NCBI RefSeq assembly: GCF_029227915.1
Contig: NC_079888.1
Coordinates: 10,151,001 to 10,215,000 of the forward strand
Reading direction: 5' to 3'
Origin: Hydractinia symbiolongicarpus
Lineage: Eukaryota > Cnidaria > Hydrozoa > Anthoathecata > Hydractiniidae
DNA length: 64,000 bases
The translations under genes and the position numbers were made by a program. Below, in pieces: positions 7,201 to 62,479 of the stretch. Below the pieces are notes generated by a model. It searched no databases and was not told the origin of the DNA. It saw only the letters and a list, made by a program, of their open reading frames with translations. Position 1 is the stretch's first letter. Each line of letters opens with the position of its first letter.

Positions 7201-8820
7201 TCATTCCAATTTTGACAAGTGTTCAACCAATTTTTCAAGAACTTTTTTATTCTTAGTAACACACTGAATGTTTTCGACACCCTGTTAACAACTTCTTTAA
7301 TCCTTCTTCTCCTTCTTTTTGGTATATAGCAACCGTGTCTTCATACCTAATACCAGCCAACACTAGCTTTCCTTGCATATTACTTGTAATTGCACCTACT
7401 TTTAAACACTCTGCATACGTGCTTTCAATCGATCTTTTATTTGATAAATACATGTAATATTCCCTTGCATATTTAAAAATAAGACTGTGGGCCTCTAACT
7501 CGCCATTGTCGACAAATGCACATCGAAGAATCTTCTTTAAGGCTTTGCAGTCATTCGCGGCATTGTGCCAGTCAAAACTACCTCCAACGTATTCCTCGTA
7601 AAGGTTTCCCAATTTGCAACTTTTTTCTGAACGGGCTTTAACCCTATTTGGTCCGGGGTTTTTCAAACATACTATGACCGGGGTGGGGGCGGATTCCGCC
7701 CCTCCTCAATAACTTTTCATAGGATTGTTCAAATTGAATCAAACTTGGCACACTTATAGTACGTCATAAAAGGAACAAAATGACGGCAAAAATTTTTTGC
7801 TTGCGTCAGCACATTTTCTGTGACGTCATCAGAAGCTTGAAAATTGTTAAAAATGCAACTATCTACTTAAATATAATTACTTTTGTTCTAGAGCGAATTT
7901 TTACATTCTGTTTGAAGTTTCTGAAAGCTAAATAAATTTTTTTTAACATATCTTCCGGTTTTTACATGGATCGGATGAAAAATTGCCAAAAATTGCCCGA
8001 AAATCCGTTTTTTCCGATTTTCGGGTAAAATCCGACAAAATCGGGAAATCGGATTAGTCACGTGTCAAAATTATTCAAAATGATTCTTCTTGATGAAACT
8101 TGATGAAAGTTGTGTTGCAAGTTTCAAGTTGTAAGGATAATCCTAACAGGAGTTATTATATTTTCCCCATTATAAGGATTTCATAGAGATTTTAGGGGTA
8201 GTTTCGATGCTAAAAATTTAGCATGCAGGTGTCTAATAGATAAATGTTGAAACTCAGTAAGTATCATAGCCATATAAGAAAGCAATCAGGAGTTATTAAA
8301 AAAAAGACCGTCAGGGGGGCGGAATCCGCCACCCCCCGGACCGAATAGGGTTAAATAAAGGTAAGGTATCTACAAATCCAGCGACTACTCTTTCAAAGTT
8401 TTCCAGTTTAGAATGTTTTTCCATGGTACGCAAAAGATGTTTGACATCGAATTGTTTAGCGTTGTGAGCAATAAGTACAACTTTCTTTTCGAAAGACTCC
8501 ATCCATCTTAAAAACCTTTCCAATCCTTCTCGTGCCCTTACTGAAGGAATTCTTTCTAAGTTTTGGTCGTAAAGATTTTCTCTTTGTTTTGATATTCCAG
8601 TTACATGATTGTGAGGTATTTTGCCATTAGGAAGAATGTACACATCGAGTGGTGATTCGATTCTGTCATAGCGAATTGCTGAAATTTGGATAATTTCACA
8701 AAAGGTAAACAAAGTTGTTGTTTCTATGTCAAATATACATAAAGTATATTCATTCAAGTTTGAAACCTTTACTATTTCTGGTGTAGTGAGTGGTTTTATT
8801 TTAATACCAATCTCCGCCAT
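7201..8820 (-). pseudogene. second DEDDh exonuclease copy, split by a MITE and frameshifted
   Basis: The N-terminal half (ATG at 8820 down to 8355) and C-terminal half (7637 down to 7201) align throughout with the intact gene at 1708-2604. ExoI FDIETT, ExoII HNAKQFD and ExoIII HNAANDC are all present. The halves are separated by a 709-bp element inserted at TTAA, and removing it plus one TTAA rejoins the frame at the same residues as in the intact copy. A second lesion is a 2-bp shortfall in the codons for LLTG near the 3' end (about 7280), which shifts the frame to an early stop. Without the insertion the catalytic core would be whole, so inactivation is probably recent. Upstream bases resemble those of the intact copy, as expected of a segmental or retro-duplicate. 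Confidence 0.85.
7642..8350. mobile_element. 709-bp piggyBac-type MITE, copy 1
   Basis: It begins CCCTATTTGGTCCGGGG and ends in the inverted form CCGGACCGAATAGGG, flanked by TTAA on both sides (7638-7641, 8351-8354). The uninterrupted paralogue shows a single TTAA at this point, which proves both the insertion and the 4-bp duplication. TTAA targets and CCC- termini are typical of piggyBac. Subterminal GGGGCGGATTCCGCC palindromes lie close to both ends. No transposase. A second, reversed copy lies at about 44568-45205. Confidence 0.88.
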
Positions 8821-8869
8821 TTTTAACGGTAAACTTTTATTTAAATATATATCGTTGCTTTTATTCAAT

Positions 8870-11497
8870 GTTTTCCTACACGTAACGTTTAAGCTGGAAT
8901 CGTAGTATATCTTTTGTTTTTCGGCTCAAATATCGATTTAAAATTAAAGTGTTGTTACCGAGGATGAGATAATTTTCTTTCTATATTTTCCCAAATTTAT
9001 TTTTATATACATATAATTTTTTATATTAAAATGCTGAATATAAGCACTTGTTGCTCATTAAATACGATGGCCCCTATGGTTCACTTTTTCAATTCTTCAC
9101 TCTTTCATTTTAAAAACACTTTCTCGCCTATGATCGAAATAGTTCTCTTCTGTATTCTCACACTTCTCTTCTTCACTTAACACTTCTCTGCATGTGGCCA
9201 AAAACTTTCTCTTTACAACTAAATTTAAAAATCTGGTCCGCAACTTTACACCCATGTCTGTATATTTTTTTTTACTTTTCGCAAGAGATATATTCGGCTA
9301 ACACGTGCTCAATTTACCAACAGCTTTATTGTAGTAGGTTCCAAAGCACGTGCATGAAAAAAATACTATCACGAATCAATTCAGATCAGTAGCAAATGAT
9401 TTTATTTATCAATAGAGACAATAAATGGCAAAATAAATGGCTGCCCAGATTCTTTAACCTTATGGTAGTGTCCACCAAGCAAACCACATGCTTTTTCTTT
9501 ATTATGAATGTGCTGTAAAGAATATCAGGCTGGGATTTTATGTTAAAAAAATAGGTCTTTTGTTTTGAACAATAAGAAAAACTATAATGACCAGCCTGGT
9601 TAGTATTTATTCTTAAAAAAAAGGTGATCACCCTCGTCCACAGGACCCTATTAGATAACAGTACCACTGGTTAGACCATCCTGTGTAAATATTAAATAAA
9701 TAAATAAATTTGTCTTTTCAAAATGTTTTCAAGATATTCCTATTTTTAAACTGCTCTATTTACAAAAGTGCGTAACATATATATTGTCTCGATTATTCAT
9801 ACATAACAATGACGACAAATCCCTGAGGACATAAGGGTGAATAAATGGCATATCTGGTCCCGGACATTAAAAAGATCAATTGTTCTTAGTAATTAACTCT
9901 CCAATAATTTTATGTGTAGTGGGTTGTATACTTTAGATAAAAATATATTGTGGTATTCCATTTAAGACATTCCTTTATCTTTTTCAGTACATTTATTCAA
10001 AAAATCCAGCTCATTCAATATTCCGGACTAGAATTGCGTCCGGGGAAATATTTCGCTGTAAACGAATCAGAACGCAATATTCAGTGTTTATTCTTAGAAA
10101 TACTCGTTACTGGAAACAAAAATTCAAAATAACTGTCTGGTTTTTAATACATTAATACATGCTTACATTCAGTATGTTAATTTGCCACGTGTTTTTTATT
10201 TCTTATGGAAATCTAAAAGAAATTTCGCACCTAATTCGACGCCGAATTCGCCATTTACAATTCGCTTCATTAAAATCCTCCTTTGCGTTTCGGCGAAAAG
10301 AATTATTCAAATTTAAAACAAACGAAACTGGTCATGCTGAGATACATTTCGTCTGTGAAATCGCTGTCGAATTCCTCTGGTGTAATTTAATTGACTCTCA
10401 AAAATAAATGAACAAAATTGAATCCTACTTTTTCGCGTAACACCCAAAAGTTCAGGCTTGTCTAATTAAATCAATTTCCGCACGATACGCACAACATTTA
10501 CTTATCCGAAAAAAATAAGTTTAAATCTGTTTTTTTTTTAACACAGTCATATAAGCTGCTGTTAAAATAAAACTGCTATTCATAAACAGCTTTAAAAAAT
10601 GTGTGTGTTGTTTTGTAAAGGATACCCGTTGCTTACGAAAATGATATCTCAGATCGATATGTATGTTTCCTAATTTAGAACTTGCAAGCTAACCTAGTTA
10701 ACTAAGCTTTCTTCAAACGAAAGCTTAGGCGCAAACAAATGTCAAAACAAATCCCTAATATTCCAATCCACCTCACACCCCGAATTACAATCAACCAATG
10801 GGCACAAGGCCGGCGTGGTCACATGTTACCGTCTTAAATAATAAAAGAATTAATTACATTTGTTTAGGTGAGTAGACCCATTCTCGCTTAAAACAAAAGA
10901 TTTCCCGATATTGGCCACGTGAACAAAGAACAATAGAATTAACCAATTAAAAAGCACAGTCAGAATACTGACCGCAAAAAAATCGTTTGACACTCAGCGT
11001 AATTTTTTCAACCTTAACTATTTTAATTTTCTGGTGGTAAGAAAAATTATGCTGGATCTCAAGCCTATACTTGTACTGATTGTTTCTATGTATATCAGAA
11101 CACTTGATGTACTAAAATTTTCAGAACGATTTCCTAGAACTTCTTATCAATTATGAATATTTGCCACATGGCACAAGCACCGTGCTGGGTAATAAAGATA
11201 AAGATGAAGAATAGGCTTTGTGAATATTGATTGGAATAAATATTTGTTGTTGGAGTTTCGTTACTTGCATAGCTCAGCTACAAAAAGGTTGACAGTCGTA
11301 CAAAACAGCGGGACTCGAACCTAGAAGTAAGCGTTACTTACAAAACAAATGTTTACTTGTTTAAATAAGATTTTACGCATAAGACGATTTTCTTTTTTTC
11401 ATTCGACATGTGTAGCGAAAGTTAATTTCGGTTCATTTTCTTCACCTGAGAACCGCGTTCCTAGGATTTGTTTGTTAGATTTTTTTTTCATCATCGT
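8870..11497. other. non-coding with possible LINE 3' tail
   Basis: No gene recognised. At 9660-9715 (plus strand) the sequence ACCATCCTGTGTAAATATT runs into an AATA repeat, which resembles the 3' tail of a non-LTR retrotransposon. Around 11195 AATAAAGATAAAGATGAAGA is similar. Open frames at 9192-10407 are short and show no domain. Confidence 0.5.
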
Positions 11498-47839: not shown

Positions 47840-48075
47840 TTAACTTTCTTATCTTGAACTTTCTCTGTCTCGAACAATCTCTATCTCGAACAAAAAACTT
47901 GTGCATAAATAAAAGTTTGAAATATTCAAAGGGACTAAACAAGGTTCGAAAAATCAGGGAATTCGAAAAACCAAATTTTGAAAAGTCCGGGGTAAAACTA
48001 AAAGCAAAACTAAGGGACCAAGGAAATAATTCGAAATTGAGAAATTTGAATAATTCATTGTTTGGAAAATCAGAC
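47840..48075. mobile_element. fossil pogo/Tigger-like terminal repeats
   Basis: CTTATCTTGAACTTTCTCTG, then TCTCGAACAATCTCTATCTC and GGGACTAAACAAGGTTCGA, resembles the terminal region of the Tigger at 59485-62373 (TTATCTCGAACTTTCTCTAT, GGGACCGAA). A decayed inverse form (GGGACCAAGG then ATTCGAAATTGAG) follows at 48017. This suggests a short, old, non-autonomous relative. Alignment is by eye only. Confidence 0.4.
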
Positions 48076-49224: not shown

Positions 49225-50225
49225 CTACGAAGCGATTGTTAACACGCCTAACGTTTTCTTGTTAATAATTCCAGTTCCTTTTAAACATTTTATTCCCTAA
49301 AATCTCTAAATTAAAACTAATAGCCATTTTGTGTATGTGTTCTATTTTTTTGTCTGTCAGGATGTGTGCCCATAACCGGAACTTTGTAAACATTCACACT
49401 TATCTATATAATCACATATTGTCTTTATTTATTTATTTTCCCAAAAATTTTTCTACGATTATTGTTTTTGCGCAACCTGAAATAACGACATAGCAATATG
49501 TAGAAGAAAAGTCACAAGAACCATGCGCCTAAAACAGTTAAATATATATTTAAGAAAATTATCGTGACCTATAAAAGCATTCGATATCAAAAAGTTATTA
49601 TAATTCTGTGGTTTAGATTAAAAACTTTAAACAAACAAGCACAATTGGTTAACAAACAGAACATGTTTTCAGCGAGCTTACTCAATGGTTTGGTTGAAAA
49701 AACAAACAACTTCAGAAACAAAAGAAATCCGAATTCGATATTGCAACAACATTAATATGTTTGGCGAACTTTCAGAATAAGAATGAAAGAAAAGAAAATT
49801 ATAAATAAACAAAATACACAAACAAACAAATAATAATGTTTATAATACAACGTGTACAATGATCTTGTCTGTGCCTATCCGAAGAAGTCGAAATCTTCCG
49901 AAAATGACCAAAAACAAGCTGAAAGGTGAAATACATAATTATATAAAAATTATAATTTTAGTCAGATTTTTTAATTTGTATTATATTGATGGCTAACAAA
50001 TAATTTTAAAAAGTCTTAGGATCAATTATCAAGCTAACTTAAATACGCGGTTCAATTTATTCACAAGAAAGCCCTTTTTGGTAAAACAGGCAATAAAAAC
50101 AAGGTTAGTTATAATTGCCGAAGAAGCAAATAGTTTTTACAAACAATACCGCGATCATAAACATATAGGTGGCACGAGACGTATAGTTAATTATTTTATA
50201 TTGTCACAAATTTTACTTAAAAAAA
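49225..50225. other. non-coding, no gene seen
   Basis: AT-rich sequence downstream of the vWFA gene. It presumably includes that gene's 3' UTR. No domain-bearing frame, RNA gene or repeat recognised. Confidence 0.45.
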
Positions 50226-50230
50226 TTTTT

Positions 50231-53200
50231 TTAGTGATCTATTTTCTTCAACGAAGTGCAAAAAAACGCTAAATTTGCGAAATGTGATTTTTGTCAAGAT
50301 AACATCGAAAATAAAGAAGGCGTTGATTATGTCGCAAGGATAAGGAATCTTGATAAGGAATGCAACTAAATACTTACTAAATTTGATAGCATTTTCAAGT
50401 AGACTGAATACGTAGCCAACATGTTCTGTTACCAAAATAAAACCTTTTCCTTTCGCCTTTTCCTTTGGTTTCGCAATGCCATTTAAAGTCGCTTCATTTT
50501 TAGCGGCGTTTTCACCAAGTCCGATAACAATGATGTCGATATTATTAGCTAACAGTCTTGACGCGACTGGAAATTTTTTTTCGTTCAGGTCAACTCCGAA
50601 TGTGACCAACACAACGCATTGTTTTCTGGAGTACTTTGAACCGTTTTGTTTCTCAAAATTTTGTTTTTCAATTTTTAGCAAACGCTTTGCGTATCTCAAT
50701 CCTTGACCAATTTTTCTGCTTTCAATTCTTTCCCTATGATAACAATAATAATAATAAAGGAATGGTGTGCCACAGATGTGCAAGTTAAGCGAACTGCCTC
50801 AGAGTTGCAGTTTAGCCGAATTAAACAGAGCTTGTTTATATTTGAGTTTTACTCATACAATATGAACTGTTTTGTCTATATGTGTCAGTATATATTTTCA
50901 GTCATTGTACAAATTTCTCAGCATTTAATATTTCTTTATAATAAAATAGTTAATGTTGTATTTAATACATCATAGCTACTAGCTAGAACACGGCATCGCA
51001 TGCCAGATATTGCCCTACATAAAAACTGGATTTGCACCCTTTTAGGTGGTCACAGCATTTTCTCTGAAATATGTTTTCTCAAACATCAGTAAAGTCTTTA
51101 ACATATGATATGAAAACAGACAAAATTTCATCCGTTAAACCGTAGTTGTCTTAAATTCAAGATTAAGTGTCCCTTTAAAGTACAATACTTTATGTACACA
51201 AAAGGATTTTTGCCTTCAAGTTGTTATGGGGTGCTTTTTGTCCGATATAATGGAATTGTTATTAGAATCTTTAGCTATACTTTTAGCTATACTATTAGCT
51301 ATATTTGATGAAATTAGGCAAAAATAACAAATCTTGTCCTAGGCTGAATATTGGGCAAGCTTCACCCGACACATTTTGATATCCAACAATGATTCTGGGA
51401 CTTACTAGCTAGGAAGTTACCTAGCTATGTGCAATGAAGCGTGCTACAAGTTACAAGTAATATAGTATGTTAGCCTAGGGAATTCAAATCATAAAACGTC
51501 ACCATTACAATATGGTAGCTAAAACAAGAAATTAAATACATAACTTGTATGCAGGTAAAAAATGTTTGGAAGATCCTACTAAACTAAATGTTTGGAAGAT
51601 CCTACTATTAGAAAGAGTTTGTGTTTTGTGTGTTCGTGATGTATGAAAAGCCAGTTTGTTAAGGTTTTTTGAACAATGAACGCTGATGATTGTAACGTAA
51701 TGGTTAAAGAGGGTCATTTACTTCTTAGAAGTTCTCGCACCATATTTATATTTCTAGAGGGTTTGACCTTTACATTTTAAACAAACGTTTTTGTAGTGTA
51801 GTATATACAATATGTAAATGGGATAAAATTAATCGGAACCTTTTGAATATTCTGAAAAAGTTCACTTACTGAACCGTGCCTGAAACATTTTCTAGACACT
51901 CCTCTTCAAAGCACTCATGAAATCCATATTCCAGCTTTGATGAATTTGCAAAGGTAACAAGAGCTAATTTATTTTTTTCATTACGCATGTTTTTCAGACA
52001 AGCAATTGATAAGTTACCCAACATTGCCAAGGGTTTTAAATACTCTGTCGTGTTGTAGCTGACGTCAACAAGAAAGACGATATCCGTGTTACTAGCTTGA
52101 CTGAGATAATTCCTCATCTCCAATAAACTTGCTGCTTGTTGGAGAGATTTTGGGTCTATTTCTTCTTCCTCATTTGCCTCTGTAGCTTTAGCTGATACTA
52201 TAAAAAGGGAAAATTAATCAAAGTTTTTTCAAATCCATTTAATTTAACAAGGAAGGAAAACTATTTGGTATAAGAGGGTGGGGAGGGCGCTTAAAGTGCA
52301 CTTTTGGGCCGCGGGTACTTTATACCACTTTTCCTCTATACTTACAATATCAGATAGGTTTAAAGTTGGCTTTGATGCCAGCTCCGACAGTGCGCTTGAA
52401 AGAGGAAAGAAAGTTACTAGTTAAAAACATTTTTCTTAAATTAACCAAACGATAGGGTCCGTAAAAGAAACAGAACTTTATTTTATCATAATGGTGTGCG
52501 GGACGCGGATATCGGAGGAATTATGTGTGAATTTTCAACCAATTTGAGATCAAGAAGGTTATAATGATGCTTTGCAGTGAAAATCATTGGACCAATCCAC
52601 TGATTATAGCCTTCTTTTGTAGTCCCCAGTGTTTTTTATGCTTCACATTACTAATAACTTTGTCTTTTATGGTTTTATATTGTGAAAAAAAAATTTTTCA
52701 TCACACATATTTCAATTTTAGGCCCACACGCATCGAGTATCTAATATTGATAGTCCATGATGATGTTTGCACTCTTGAAATAATGTTGCAATCGACATGT
52801 CAGTGAAAGTACCTAGTTACGTACACCAGAGCTGTCAAATCAATTGCAAAACAATTTAAAGTAGTTTGACATATGCCAAAATTTCTTATTCAGACATTAA
52901 GTCGACACAAGTAGATTTGTTATCAAGGAAATCTTATATACTACGAAGCGTCGCGTTTCACGGTAGTTTTTATTTAAAAGTAGTTTAATTCATGTTACAA
53001 ATACCTTTATTAATAAGGTGCATAGTATTTACTATGCATTTGTTAAGATGCGCACGCTTGACGCTATCGAGAGAAATTTAGGTTAGTTTGATTTTGTTAG
53101 TTTTAATCAGGGATAGATACTGGCAACTACACAACAATAACATGGCGTGGGTCTCTGTAGTAGGGACGAATGCCATGACAAAAGAAACAATCTATCATAT

Positions 53201-58385: not shown

Positions 58386-59809
58386 GTCTCAACGATTGAT
58401 TGATTGATTGATTGATTTAATTTATTTACCGTCGGTTATTATATACAATAGTTCTTTAAAAAAAATAATATTTTGCAAAAAACTAATCAAAACCGACCAA
58501 ATATTTTTATATATTTACAATTTAGATGAAAACTATAATAAATAAATAATGAATAAATAATAAATAAAAGATAAACATTCCCCCTCTCCCATTTTCGTAT
58601 TGATTACGCAAGTTATGGAATCAATTGCCGACACTCTGTGCATGAACAGTGAGAGCCATTCCATTTTTTAATCATTTGCTTAAATTTAACTAGATCTTCG
58701 CAACTCTTCGTATGAAAAGGAAGTTTATTCCAAACTTTTGGGGCTAAACATCGCAAACTGTTTAGACCAAAGGTGCTTGTTTTTACACTGATGGTTTTTA
58801 GGTGTTCATGTTTTGACTTCTTACTGGCCTATCAGTTTCCTCAAAAAGGAAATTATCTTTCATGAAATAAGGACTGATGTTTCTCCGAATTTTAAATATT
58901 TCTATGCATAAATATCTATGCCTTAGTAATTCCATATAATGTTTATTTGGGGGGCAATCAACTGGTCTTGGGTCATCATGAATAAAACTTAAAGCCCTGT
59001 TGTGGAGTTTTTCAATTTTCAAAAGAGATTTCGAAGAAGAGAAATGCCAAACTAAGGGACAATAATTAAAATTTGCATACACGAAGCTTTGTGCTAAAAT
59101 AGATCTTGTTTGCAAAGATAGTACATTTTTAAATCTAAATAATGTATTCAGCTGGGCTGAGGCTTTTCGACAAAGATTACTAATGTGCAAGTTGAAATTT
59201 AATTTATCATCAATTGTTACTCCTAAAAGTTTTACGGACCTTTCTGATTGTATGACTCTATCGCCAATGTTTATATCAAGCTTCGAGTTATCAATTTTGG
59301 CTCTTGATAGAAGGATCGAATGAAATTTGTTTTGATTTGCTATCATTTTGTTATTATTTAACCAAGAAAGGGCAATTTCGGATTCCCTTTCTAAAGTCTT
59401 AATGAGATTTTTAATAGTGTTTGAATAAGCTGATATCGTATTGTCGTCTGCGTAATTATGTAGGTCACTATTTACAATAAAATACAGTCGACGTTCGTTA
59501 TCTCGAACTCCCAAGGGACCGAAAGAAAAGTTCGAGATAGCGAGCGTTCGAGATAGCGGAGGTTCGACATAACGAGCGTATTTCATGAAAAGTTCGAGAT
59601 AACGAGTTTTTCGAAATTTTTTGAAATTTTTAGAAAAGGGCAAGGGTCAGTAGTTCGGTCATAAGTATCTGTGGGCAAGCTTTTAAAATTAAAATTCACC
59701 TGAATTAAGGGAACTTGAAGGAACTGTTTGGTCAAGAAAGGGAAATGGATAATAAAGAAAACAGCATTTTGCGTACATGTATACTTATTGTTGATTACAA
59801 TTACATACA

Positions 59810-62040
59810 TTATTTTTGATCGAAAAAGCTCAAAATACTAGTTTGCTTCTTGTTTTTCATTTCACTTTTAAGAAACAAATCTTCAAAGCGAAGCAGGAGG
59901 CGTTGCATGTCATTTCCATCATCAGTAAATAGACAAGCATTTTGTAAAGTCTCCACTGCAGTGTTTATTTCTGATTTTGTTGGCTTGCTCACTGGCTCAT
60001 CAAACACCTCGATGACATCGGCATTTTCATCATGCTCCTCGTCATTCTCATCTGTACTTGGCCGTACCGACTCAAGGATTTCTTCATCAGTCACGGGATT
60101 TTCGATTGTGGTCAAATCTTGGTCAATATCGACAACATCACGGGCCGAGAGATCAGCAGGAATAATGGTATCGTCAATGGCACGCAGTTGTGTGAGATCT
60201 TTCTCCAGTTGTTTAAATGGATCATCAATATCATCAGTTGCATTCTGTTGAGCTTTCTTGGAAATCTTTGATTTCTTGAAGCAATTTACGATGGTTTCTT
60301 TCTTCACTTTGTCCCACGACGAAACAAGTATTTGAAGAGCACGCAGAATTGAAACTTTTGGAAGATCTTTGCCTTTTTCTAGGTTTTGAATCATCATGTT
60401 GACCAATTTTTGGCGATAAAGAGACTTATGACATCTTATGACACCTTGGTCCATCGGTTGTGACACAGAAGTTGTATTTGGAGGTAAGAAATCAATTTAA
60501 TGTTGGACAGTCCACCGACATCAGGGTGAGCGGGACAGTTATCGATGATCAAGACTATCTTTCGACCTTCTTTTAGAAACATTGCATTGATTTCTCGCAC
60601 CCACTCTTCAAAAAGAGAGCTGTCCATCCAACTCTTCTTCTGCGCTCTGTACCTGCAGGGTAGGGATGTTACATTTTTGAAGTACCTTGGTTTCTTCGAT
60701 TTACCAATCACAAACATTGGTAGTTTATCTCCGACAGCATTGGCAGCTGCAAGCCCGGTAATTCGGACTTTGCTATTTTTACCCCCAGAGCATTTTTCGG
60801 ATTTGTAGTGATACGTTTTATTTGGCAAGCATTGGTAGAAGAGACCGAATTCGTCGGCATTGTAAATATCTTCTAGTTTGTAGTTAGTTAATAATGTTGG
60901 TAAAGTGGTTTCAAACCAAGATGCTATCATATCAGGTTGAACAGAATTGCTTTCACCAACGACCGTCTTGAACGTTACATTGTGCCTGAAATAGAAAATA
61001 AAACAAATACCGACTTGTATAAAAGATTTATTGTTAACCTGTTCGTGCATTTTTTCGAATACGAATGTTCAAATTTCAATTCGAATGTTTTTAAAAATTC
61101 TTGTGTGAACACCCTGTGAACATTATCATTATTACTTGTGCATGGCAACAAGGAAAAGCAAACCAGGAGAAAAAGGAGAAGATGGATCTTGCAAAAATGA
61201 TAATTGATCAAAATTTAATCAACGTTGTAATGATAAAAGAATTTGAATTGGCTTCACATGTTAAGGGGTTCCACGTTTATAAAGCATTGTGGACTCCAAA
61301 AAATGGGGAGACTTTACAATGCGAAGGAGAGCCTAATAATCCCGTTGACAAATATGCTGTGTGTGTCAAGAAAGAAAACAAGATAGTTGGACATTTACCA
61401 CTTGGAAAATCTGGAAAATTTGCTAAAACAATATTTTATTTCCTCAGAGCTGATGAATTAAGCTCGTGCAAAGTAACTGTGACTGGAAAACCAGTTAATT
61501 TGGGAGATGGTGAAGGCATGCAAGTGCCATGCAATTTGACATTTATTGGAACGGAAAAGTGCATCGAGATACTCAAGAAACATATTTAGTTTATGTTAGT
61601 CTTTTTAAGATTTTAATATCAAAATAAAACCAATTCGAAAAAAAGAGATTTAATATTCTTACCTTTTTTTCCATTTACCAAGCCAACCGTCTGAAGCTTT
61701 GAAATCTTCTACTCCAAGCTCCTGTGCATAGCTTTTATCTTTCTCCTTTAGTATTGTCCCATCGATTGGTATGTTTTTGCTTCGTTGTGAAACAAACCAT
61801 TTGAACACGACAAGATCTACTTCTGAGAATTTACCATCTCTAATCTTTCTTTTCTTGCTCGAAGATTTTTCGAGAGCAGAAAAAAGTTTTTCCTTATTGG
61901 CTAGCCAAGTTGATATCGTGTTTTTAGGCACCCCGTACTTTTTAGCGATATCTTTATTTGGAATACCTTTTTCCAATTCTTTTAATGCTTGGCATTTTTC
62001 TGCCAAAGTTTTTACAGCGAGCTTTCTTTTCGGTGGCACT
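59810..62040 (-). pseudogene. Tigger/pogo transposase, single frameshift
   Basis: Exon 61663-62040 (acceptor TTTGTCAG, donor GTAAGA) encodes the psq-type helix-turn-helix (KCQALKELEKGIPNKDIAKK, YGVPKNTISTWL) and the CENP-B/Tc5 DNA-binding part (GWLGKWKK). After a 677-nt intron, exon 60985-59810 (acceptor TATTTCAG) encodes the DDE_1 nuclease: IYNADEFGLF, GKNSKVRITGLAAANAVGDK, LIIDNCPAH and QPMDQGVI supply the three aspartates. A one-base deletion near 60488-60498 (after LSNIKLI) shifts the frame before the third aspartate. The acidic C-terminal tail ends QTSILSFFDQK, a PIP box (QxxIxxFF) for PCNA. A first exon with the start codon may lie at 62.05-62.17 kb. Non-functional as it stands. Confidence 0.88.
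61182..61589 (+). CDS. HIRAN-domain protein encoded in the intron of the Tigger transposase
   Basis: An intact 135-aa frame on the strand opposite to the transposase, wholly inside its intron (60986-61662). The ATG at 61182 has a strong context (GAAGATGG). The frame is open without ATG back to 61101. From residue 22: HVKGFHVYKALWTP, GETLQCEGEPNNPVDKYAV, KIVGHLP, then VPCNLTFIG. This is the HIRAN pattern G-Y..., GE, L.REP.NP.D..AV, VG..P. HIRAN domains (HLTF, bacterial and standalone forms) bind 3' single-stranded DNA ends. A TATAAAAG stands at 61018-61025 and AATAAA at 61623-61628, 34 nt after the stop, so it looks like an independent transcription unit. Because the other strand is an intron, the frame is not a shadow of coding sequence. 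Function inside the transposon is inferred. Confidence 0.8.
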   Translation: MDLAKMIIDQNLINVVMIKEFELASHVKGFHVYKALWTPKNGETLQCEGEPNNPVDKYAVCVKKENKIVGHLPLGKSGKFAKTIFYFLRADELSSCKVTVTGKPVNLGDGEGMQVPCNLTFIGTEKCIEILKKHI

Positions 62041-62479
62041 CTGACAAAGGAAATCACAAAAAAAACATTGCAAAATCTACCTGTTTTACAATGGAATGTC
62101 TTCTTTTTATTGCAACATTTTGTGACTTTAAAACAAGCAGTGCAAGGTCTTCTTTTTTCAAAATTCCTCTTCAAGAGTTCGAGTTAACGAGCGTAAATCA
62201 GTCCAAGGGACTGAGAAAAAAGTTCGAGATAGTGAAAGTTCGAGATAACGGAGGTTCGAGATACCGAACGTTTTTTTGCCTACTATTGCTTACAGAACTC
62301 AAGGGACCGAAGAAAAAGTTCGAGATAGAGAAAGTTCGAGATAACGGAGGTTCGAGATAATGAGCGTCGACTGTAAAATAAATCATTCATAAATATATTA
62401 AAAATAATTGGGCCCAACACAGAACCCTGAGGCACACCTGACAAAATTAATTCAAATATACTATACTCCGCATTTTACA

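Follow-up and report, generated by a model that had tools for sequence, protein, structure and literature searches.

Introduction

Tigger/pogo elements are not known to need anything beyond their transposase. Drosophila pogo and human Tigger share with the element described here a transposase with CENP-B_N, HTH_Tnp_Tc5 and DDE_1 domains, a TA duplication, inverted ends and a C-terminal PIP box (PMC5371812). The pogo transposase is a PCNA interactor, and the same source describes the role of the PIP motif as unclear.

In HLTF, the base-stacking tyrosines of the HIRAN domain are Y72 and Y93, residues N90 and N91 cannot be dispensed with, and fork reversal by HIRAN-less HLTF is restored when the HIRAN domain is supplied in trans as a free protein (PMC4666394). 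HLTF's HIRAN is also important for the removal of Cas9 from cut DNA (PMC11237066). The HIRAN of Rad5 binds ssDNA without requiring or preferring a 3'-OH, and binds PCNA too (PMC7804152).

Here we analyse a Tigger/pogo element of the hydroid Hydractinia symbiolongicarpus that departs from the known plan in two ways: its transposase gene is split by an intron, and this intron contains another gene, for a HIRAN protein, in antisense orientation. It lies in a 64,000-nucleotide stretch of contig NC_079888.1 (hereafter the window), to which all coordinates refer. Unlike the HIRAN domains of HLTF and Rad5, the window protein stands alone, with no Snf2 motor or RING; it is transposon-encoded and is without equivalents of Y72 and Y93. 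A stand-alone protein of HIRAN fold, lp_0118 (PDB 3k2y), which from the fold match we take to be a HIRAN protein, is bacterial, 12% identical and found in an unrelated setting. PIF/Harbinger elements are two-gene DNA transposons that carry a transposase gene and a Myb-like gene. The element described here is like them in combining a transposase with a gene for a putative accessory DNA-binding protein; their second gene is not known to lie in the transposase intron, and it is not a HIRAN gene. No report of a HIRAN gene in a DNA transposon was found among the titles and abstract openings of literature on HIRAN together with transposases or transposable elements. A word search of the main text of two pogo surveys (PMC7386202 and PMC7325037) found none of the terms intron, passenger, ORF2, accessory, antisense or HIRAN.

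Results and discussion

The element and its transposase

The element (Table 1) is flanked by a TA duplication (59483-59484 and 62374-62375), and its inverted ends (59483-59508/62350-62375) are 92% complementary, with TA on both sides. It splits an ORF that we assign to a LINE on the basis of its YADD and GVPQGSVLGP motifs; a Pfam scan of the two ORF halves gave no match.

Table 1. Features of the Tigger/pogo element and its flanks in the window
Feature	Position	Strand	Evidence or remark
LINE ORF piece with YADD motif, split by the Tigger element	58801..59482	-	ORF list
Tigger/pogo element	59485..62373	transposase on -	Inverted ends and transposase domains
Terminal inverted repeat containing GTTCGAGATA-type sub-repeats in tandem	59485..59583		Transposase-strand 3' end; repeat families D1, D2, I1
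Rest of the transposase in a different frame (second part of DDE_1, then the C-terminus)	59813..60496	-	ORFs and domains
PIP box QTSILSFF (PCNA-interacting motif), transposase C-terminus	59822..59845	-	Sequence
Transposase exon 2, DDE_1 first part	60439..60985	-	Frame break near 60490
Transposase intron, 677 bp; HIRAN gene within it on the opposite strand	60986..61662	-	In-frame GT-AG join
TATAAAAG, possible HIRAN promoter element (weak)	61018..61025	+	About 0.2 expected by chance in the stretch
HIRAN-only gene, 135 codons and stop, antisense to the transposase	61182..61589	+	ORF, alignment, Pfam relatives, predicted fold
AATAAA, possible polyadenylation signal (weak), 34 bp past the HIRAN stop, within the intron	61623..61628	+	About 0.2 expected by chance
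Transposase exon 1 region with its DNA-binding domains, CENP-B_N and HTH_Tnp_Tc5	61662..62039	-	Donor AAG/GTAAG at end
Opposite terminal inverted repeat, 73-nt sub-terminal unit twice (62203-62275, 62299-62371)	62203..62373		Repeat family D1
Second half of the split LINE ORF, GVPQGSVLGP motif	62376..62474	-	ORF list

All transposase domains exceed their Pfam cut-offs (CENP-B_N 42.0, HTH_Tnp_Tc5 42.7 and DDE_1 67.7/56.0 bits). The aspartates of NADEFG, DNCPAH and QPMDQG, which we take to be the Asp triad, are all present in the window transposase, the third of them past the frameshift, and across 13 aligned relatives two are invariant and one nearly so. The frame itself is broken in the window copy, near 60490, while the HIRAN frame is open, just as the original prediction had it. 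Another protein of H. symbiolongicarpus, P0241 (413 aa), is uninterrupted and 98% identical to the exon-2/3 query, in which an X was placed at the frame break; its first 22 residues match read-through of the 3' end of the window intron. A loose PIP-like pattern occurs in 76 of the 90 transposase homologs, among the matches listed, whose C-terminus is covered.

The span that had been proposed as bounded by the transposase donor and acceptor is exactly the intron, because the GT-AG join 61662/60986 keeps the frame, giving WLGKWKKR/HNVTFKTVVGESNSV. The final coding base of exon 1 is 61663, and its last codon is completed across the splice junction. The protein database holds 200 homologs of exon 1 at E <= 1e-10, of which the best 120 were examined. 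The donor, within 1 residue, is the end of 67 of these; 24 extend 2-30 aa past it and 6 further, 3 continue into exon 2, and the alignments of the other 20 stop short of the donor. Homologs of exons 2/3 number 888 at E <= 1e-30, and among the best 120 of them 30 are fused to exon 1 with no intron at this site. The intron is therefore old, since 67 of 120 listed exon-1 homologs stop at the donor, yet the 30 intronless relatives mean that a HIRAN gene in this intron is not universal in Tigger elements.

Several further observations concern the element's surroundings. Upstream of exon 1, the minus-strand frame stays open through 62040-62183, with a cysteine-rich stretch and no Met, and by eye a mini-intron (AACAG/GTAGAT...GTCAG/AG) with an additional 5' exon looks possible. 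An exon-1 gene model of H. symbiolongicarpus, P0192, passes by eye from the donor into terminal-repeat-like sequence, which suggests an internally deleted copy or cryptic splicing. A 27-bp stretch at 47849-47875 lies in a short array of tandem TATCTCGAAC-like units and is a 93% match to the element's terminal sub-repeat; it may be a relic or MITE belonging to this Tigger family. The window also contains three related exonuclease-type genes on the minus strand (1711-2628, 8314-8925 and 7253-7705), apparently a local duplication; two scanned ORFs have an RNase_T match, one of them also a PML C-terminal domain, and the third is alike by eye only. A von Willebrand factor A domain exon lies at 50220-50798 on the minus strand. 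An Rfam scan of the whole window at gathering thresholds returned 0 matches.

The HIRAN gene and its product

A HIRAN gene of 135 codons does lie antisense in the Tigger transposase intron, on the plus strand with the transposase on the minus strand, as had been predicted. The signals proposed as its own, AATAAA and an upstream TATAAAAG, are both present, but each is weak, with about 0.2 expected by chance. The Pfam HIRAN model (PF08797) scores the window protein at 21.0 bits, below the gathering cut-off of 24.7, and matches 17 of 40 relatives at E <= 0.01. The predicted structure of the window protein has the HIRAN fold, and the model is taken up by one HIRAN domain, which leaves no space for a motor or a nuclease.

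We read the equivalents of HLTF residues off an alignment of the window HIRAN. N52/N53 of the window protein correspond to HLTF N90/N91; of 40 aligned HIRANs, 37 retain an equivalent of N91 and only 2 an equivalent of N90. D94 and Y73, which have functional roles in HLTF, have equivalents in 40/40 and 37/40 of the aligned HIRANs, respectively, and both are also found in the window protein. Both stacking tyrosines are valines in the window protein: the Y72 position is V32 (V in 27 and E in 11 of the 40) and the Y93 position is V55 (V 17, M 11, I 5, K 4). Because the equivalents of N91, D94 and Y73 are kept and those of Y72 and Y93 are lost, DNA or fork binding by the HIRAN protein is plausible from its sequence, and specificity for a 3'-OH is less so. 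Of the DNA-end-binding passenger originally envisaged, the stable antisense passenger in the intron is supported; 3'-OH ends are only a possible ligand.

The nested arrangement in other genomes

For protein records from other genomes, we tested at each codon of a protein tail whether the underlying DNA could be the complementary strand of a HIRAN gene. We examined 20 exon-1 read-through tails, each at least 8 aa past the donor, and found antisense HIRAN in four. The tail of P0156 is compatible at 42 of 44 residues, spanning CKIVVTGKPVNLGDGEGMQVPCKLIFTGIEKCIDILKRHLYTC and the stop (score 38, best of 20 shuffles 9); the others are P0137 with 20/20 (8), P0164 with 19/20 (8) and P0145 with 16/17 (7). 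The HIRAN stop is about 17 codons beyond the donor in P0156, P0137 and P0164. The remaining 16 tails had no acceptable antisense HIRAN match, with scores of 8 or less. The exon-1 tail of P0123 was not counted, as it gave 42 against 31 in one comparison and 6 against 8 in the antisense test and is ambiguous.

The reverse relation, HIRAN records that run into antisense exon 1, was seen in two of 37 HIRAN head or tail segments, the only ones to beat all 30 shuffles: P0043 (13/13; score 13, best shuffle 9) and, more weakly, P0045 (10/11; score 8 against 7), whose BLOSUM score against the window plus strand is 41 against 32. P0096 matches at 8/8, but the shuffle maximum is also 8, and we left it out as ambiguous. 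The Penaeus indicus record P0306, a 'tigger transposable element-derived protein 6-like', contains antisense HIRAN at 25/27 (score 21; the runner-up among the 120 records reached 10; first 170 aa scanned), situated between parts that by eye resemble exon 1 and exon 2. None of 18 exon-2 read-through heads gave an acceptable antisense HIRAN match; the head of P0268, by eye the antisense of a HIRAN start, scored 6 with a shuffle maximum of 6 and was rejected. The tails of P0156, P0137, P0164 and P0145 together with P0043 look like one subfamily, perhaps from one host, and are therefore best treated as about one case. As judged from these sequences, there are some three or four cases of nesting: the window, the P0156-type subfamily, Penaeus and, weakly, P0045, which belongs to a different HIRAN subfamily.

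Contig sizes were also compared between lists of homologs, with P0292 (one of the 120 exon-2/3 rows) left out. Among the matches listed, five contigs of at least 5 kb have identical sizes in the HIRAN and exon-1 lists (null 0.013) and two in the HIRAN and exon-2/3 lists (null 0.006); the shortest of these contigs measures 5,944 bp. Most of these contigs are long, so they speak for shared genomes more than for nesting. The coincidence at 3,327,591 bp matches a HIRAN to a clearly different exon-1 subfamily and probably reflects mere co-residence. Size coincidences below 5 kb (761, 1214, 2359, 2783 and 2814) are near chance (nulls 0.05-0.9) and were not used as proof. Two of them, similarly near chance, join intronless transposases to HIRAN records: P0284 (515 aa) with P0120 at 2783 and P0293 (521 aa) with P0059 at 2814. 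Should these pairs be real, intronless Tiggers would have a HIRAN gene as well, located outside any intron.

A viral contig collection gave 0 matches each for the HIRAN protein, the TIR pattern and transposase alignment A2. Its single match to alignment A1, contig L001, is phage-like; visual inspection of the listed ORFs around the match revealed no HIRAN, and the contig was dropped. A genome contig collection gave 0 matches for alignment A1 and 0 for the TIR pattern.

We consider it probable that a Tigger/pogo lineage has a standing second gene, encoding a HIRAN-only protein antisense in the transposase intron and co-inherited with the transposase. For other genomes, the nested arrangement is indicated by protein records rather than by DNA.

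A possible role in transposition

The HIRAN protein would be made from its own intronic transcript and would work in trans, alongside a transposase with a PCNA-binding PIP box, at the DNA ends or replication forks that transposition makes. At the site of excision or of the gap, it may bind to ssDNA, to 3' ends or to fork structures, in place of the HIRAN domain of the host HLTF/Rad5 remodeller. The outcome would be that the post-cleavage complex is shielded from eviction, or that gap repair is steered so that the donor copy is restored. This molecular role is drawn by analogy with the described HIRAN domains, and our confidence in it falls somewhat short of even. More tentatively, the lineage may extend from hydroids to shrimp, with the HIRAN protein taking over or blocking host HLTF/Rad5 fork remodelling at transposition sites and forming with the PIP box a two-component, fork-tied system.

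A narrower version of this explanation makes the HIRAN protein a counter-defence decoy. Its competition with host HLTF/Rad5 would be over DNA ends or over the remodeller, and would prevent the host from removing the transposase from cut DNA or from carrying out fork reversal at the element. Two published findings fit such a decoy: a free HIRAN domain works in trans when HLTF lacks its own (PMC4666394), and the stripping of Cas9 from cut ends by HLTF is HIRAN-dependent (PMC11237066). The predicted protein, a lone HIRAN domain without space for a motor or nuclease, fits it too. However, HLTF is just one of several possible partners, and DNA binding by Rad5 HIRANs differs (PMC7804152); we think this version rather doubtful.

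Probable selection on the HIRAN protein

The protein database contains 854 HIRAN homologs at E <= 0.001. The best 120 of these, minus P0001, which is the window's own cluster (8 member sequences on 8 contigs), are 52-80% identical over the aligned part. Among 40 aligned HIRANs, 3 columns are invariant and 45 nearly so, and 39 relatives keep 50-75% identity. We also compared 12 HIRAN-transposase pairs, one record from each list matched by identical contig size. Seven of them show identities to the window of 65-75% for HIRAN and 63-71% for the transposase; in 10 of 12 the transposase is no closer to the window than HIRAN is, so HIRAN seems to evolve no faster. The exceptions are the 5,944- and 1,214-bp pairs, in which HIRAN is the less similar (64% against 81% in the latter). 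A Mantel test of HIRAN/transposase tree congruence was not significant, either with 6 pairs (r 0.59, p 0.057) or with 8 (r 0.15, p 0.25).

These figures bear on the idea that a single captured HIRAN gene is a neutral passenger, merely carried along, its open frames reflecting recent spread. The window copy, with its frameshifted transposase and open HIRAN frame, agrees with that idea, and the original prediction had likewise allowed for simple youth. Youth alone is unlikely, however, because the 39 aligned relatives keep their identity at 50-75%, and with HIRAN frames lasting over such distances, the conserved columns and the HIRAN similarity in 10 of 12 pairs, neutral carriage is improbable.

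The intron outside the HIRAN gene behaves differently. In P0156, the 17 intronic residues between the donor and HIRAN score 21 against the window intron, no better than shuffles, whereas the HIRAN-antisense part scores 104; in P0268, 55 intronic residues score 39, slightly over shuffles (95% point 35, maximum 47). With an intron that is barely alignable outside HIRAN, the matched pairs and conserved columns point to selection on the HIRAN protein. It might instead be antisense transcription through the intron that is selected, as a means of regulating transposase splicing or dosage, since the HIRAN gene lies wholly within the intron on the opposite strand and any HIRAN transcript therefore overlaps the transposase pre-mRNA. 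But conservation is seen in the amino-acid sequence and predicted fold of HIRAN; beyond the ORF, the intron of P0156 cannot be aligned and that of P0268 aligns only weakly, which leaves this a decidedly remote prospect. That a separate HIRAN-bearing element with its own ends inserted once in this intron is hardly credible. In its favour, an exact inverted match of 11 bp (TTTTTTCGAAT) surrounds the ORF; it is the longest within the intron, and 2 of 200 shuffles reached its length. Against it, records from other genomes have the same order of exon 1, intron and antisense HIRAN, with exon-1 ORFs running into antisense HIRAN and the reverse.

Implications

The layout that we favour, with a gene conserved antisense within the transposase intron of a Tigger/pogo lineage, is unusual. 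It uses both strands of a single 677-bp intron without overlapping the transposase coding sequence. A HIRAN-only protein would serve as a natural, small and possibly dominant probe of HLTF/Rad5. A co-inherited HIRAN gene would be a second link of Tigger/pogo elements to replication-fork repair, and would make the question of how pogo elements use the fork directly testable.
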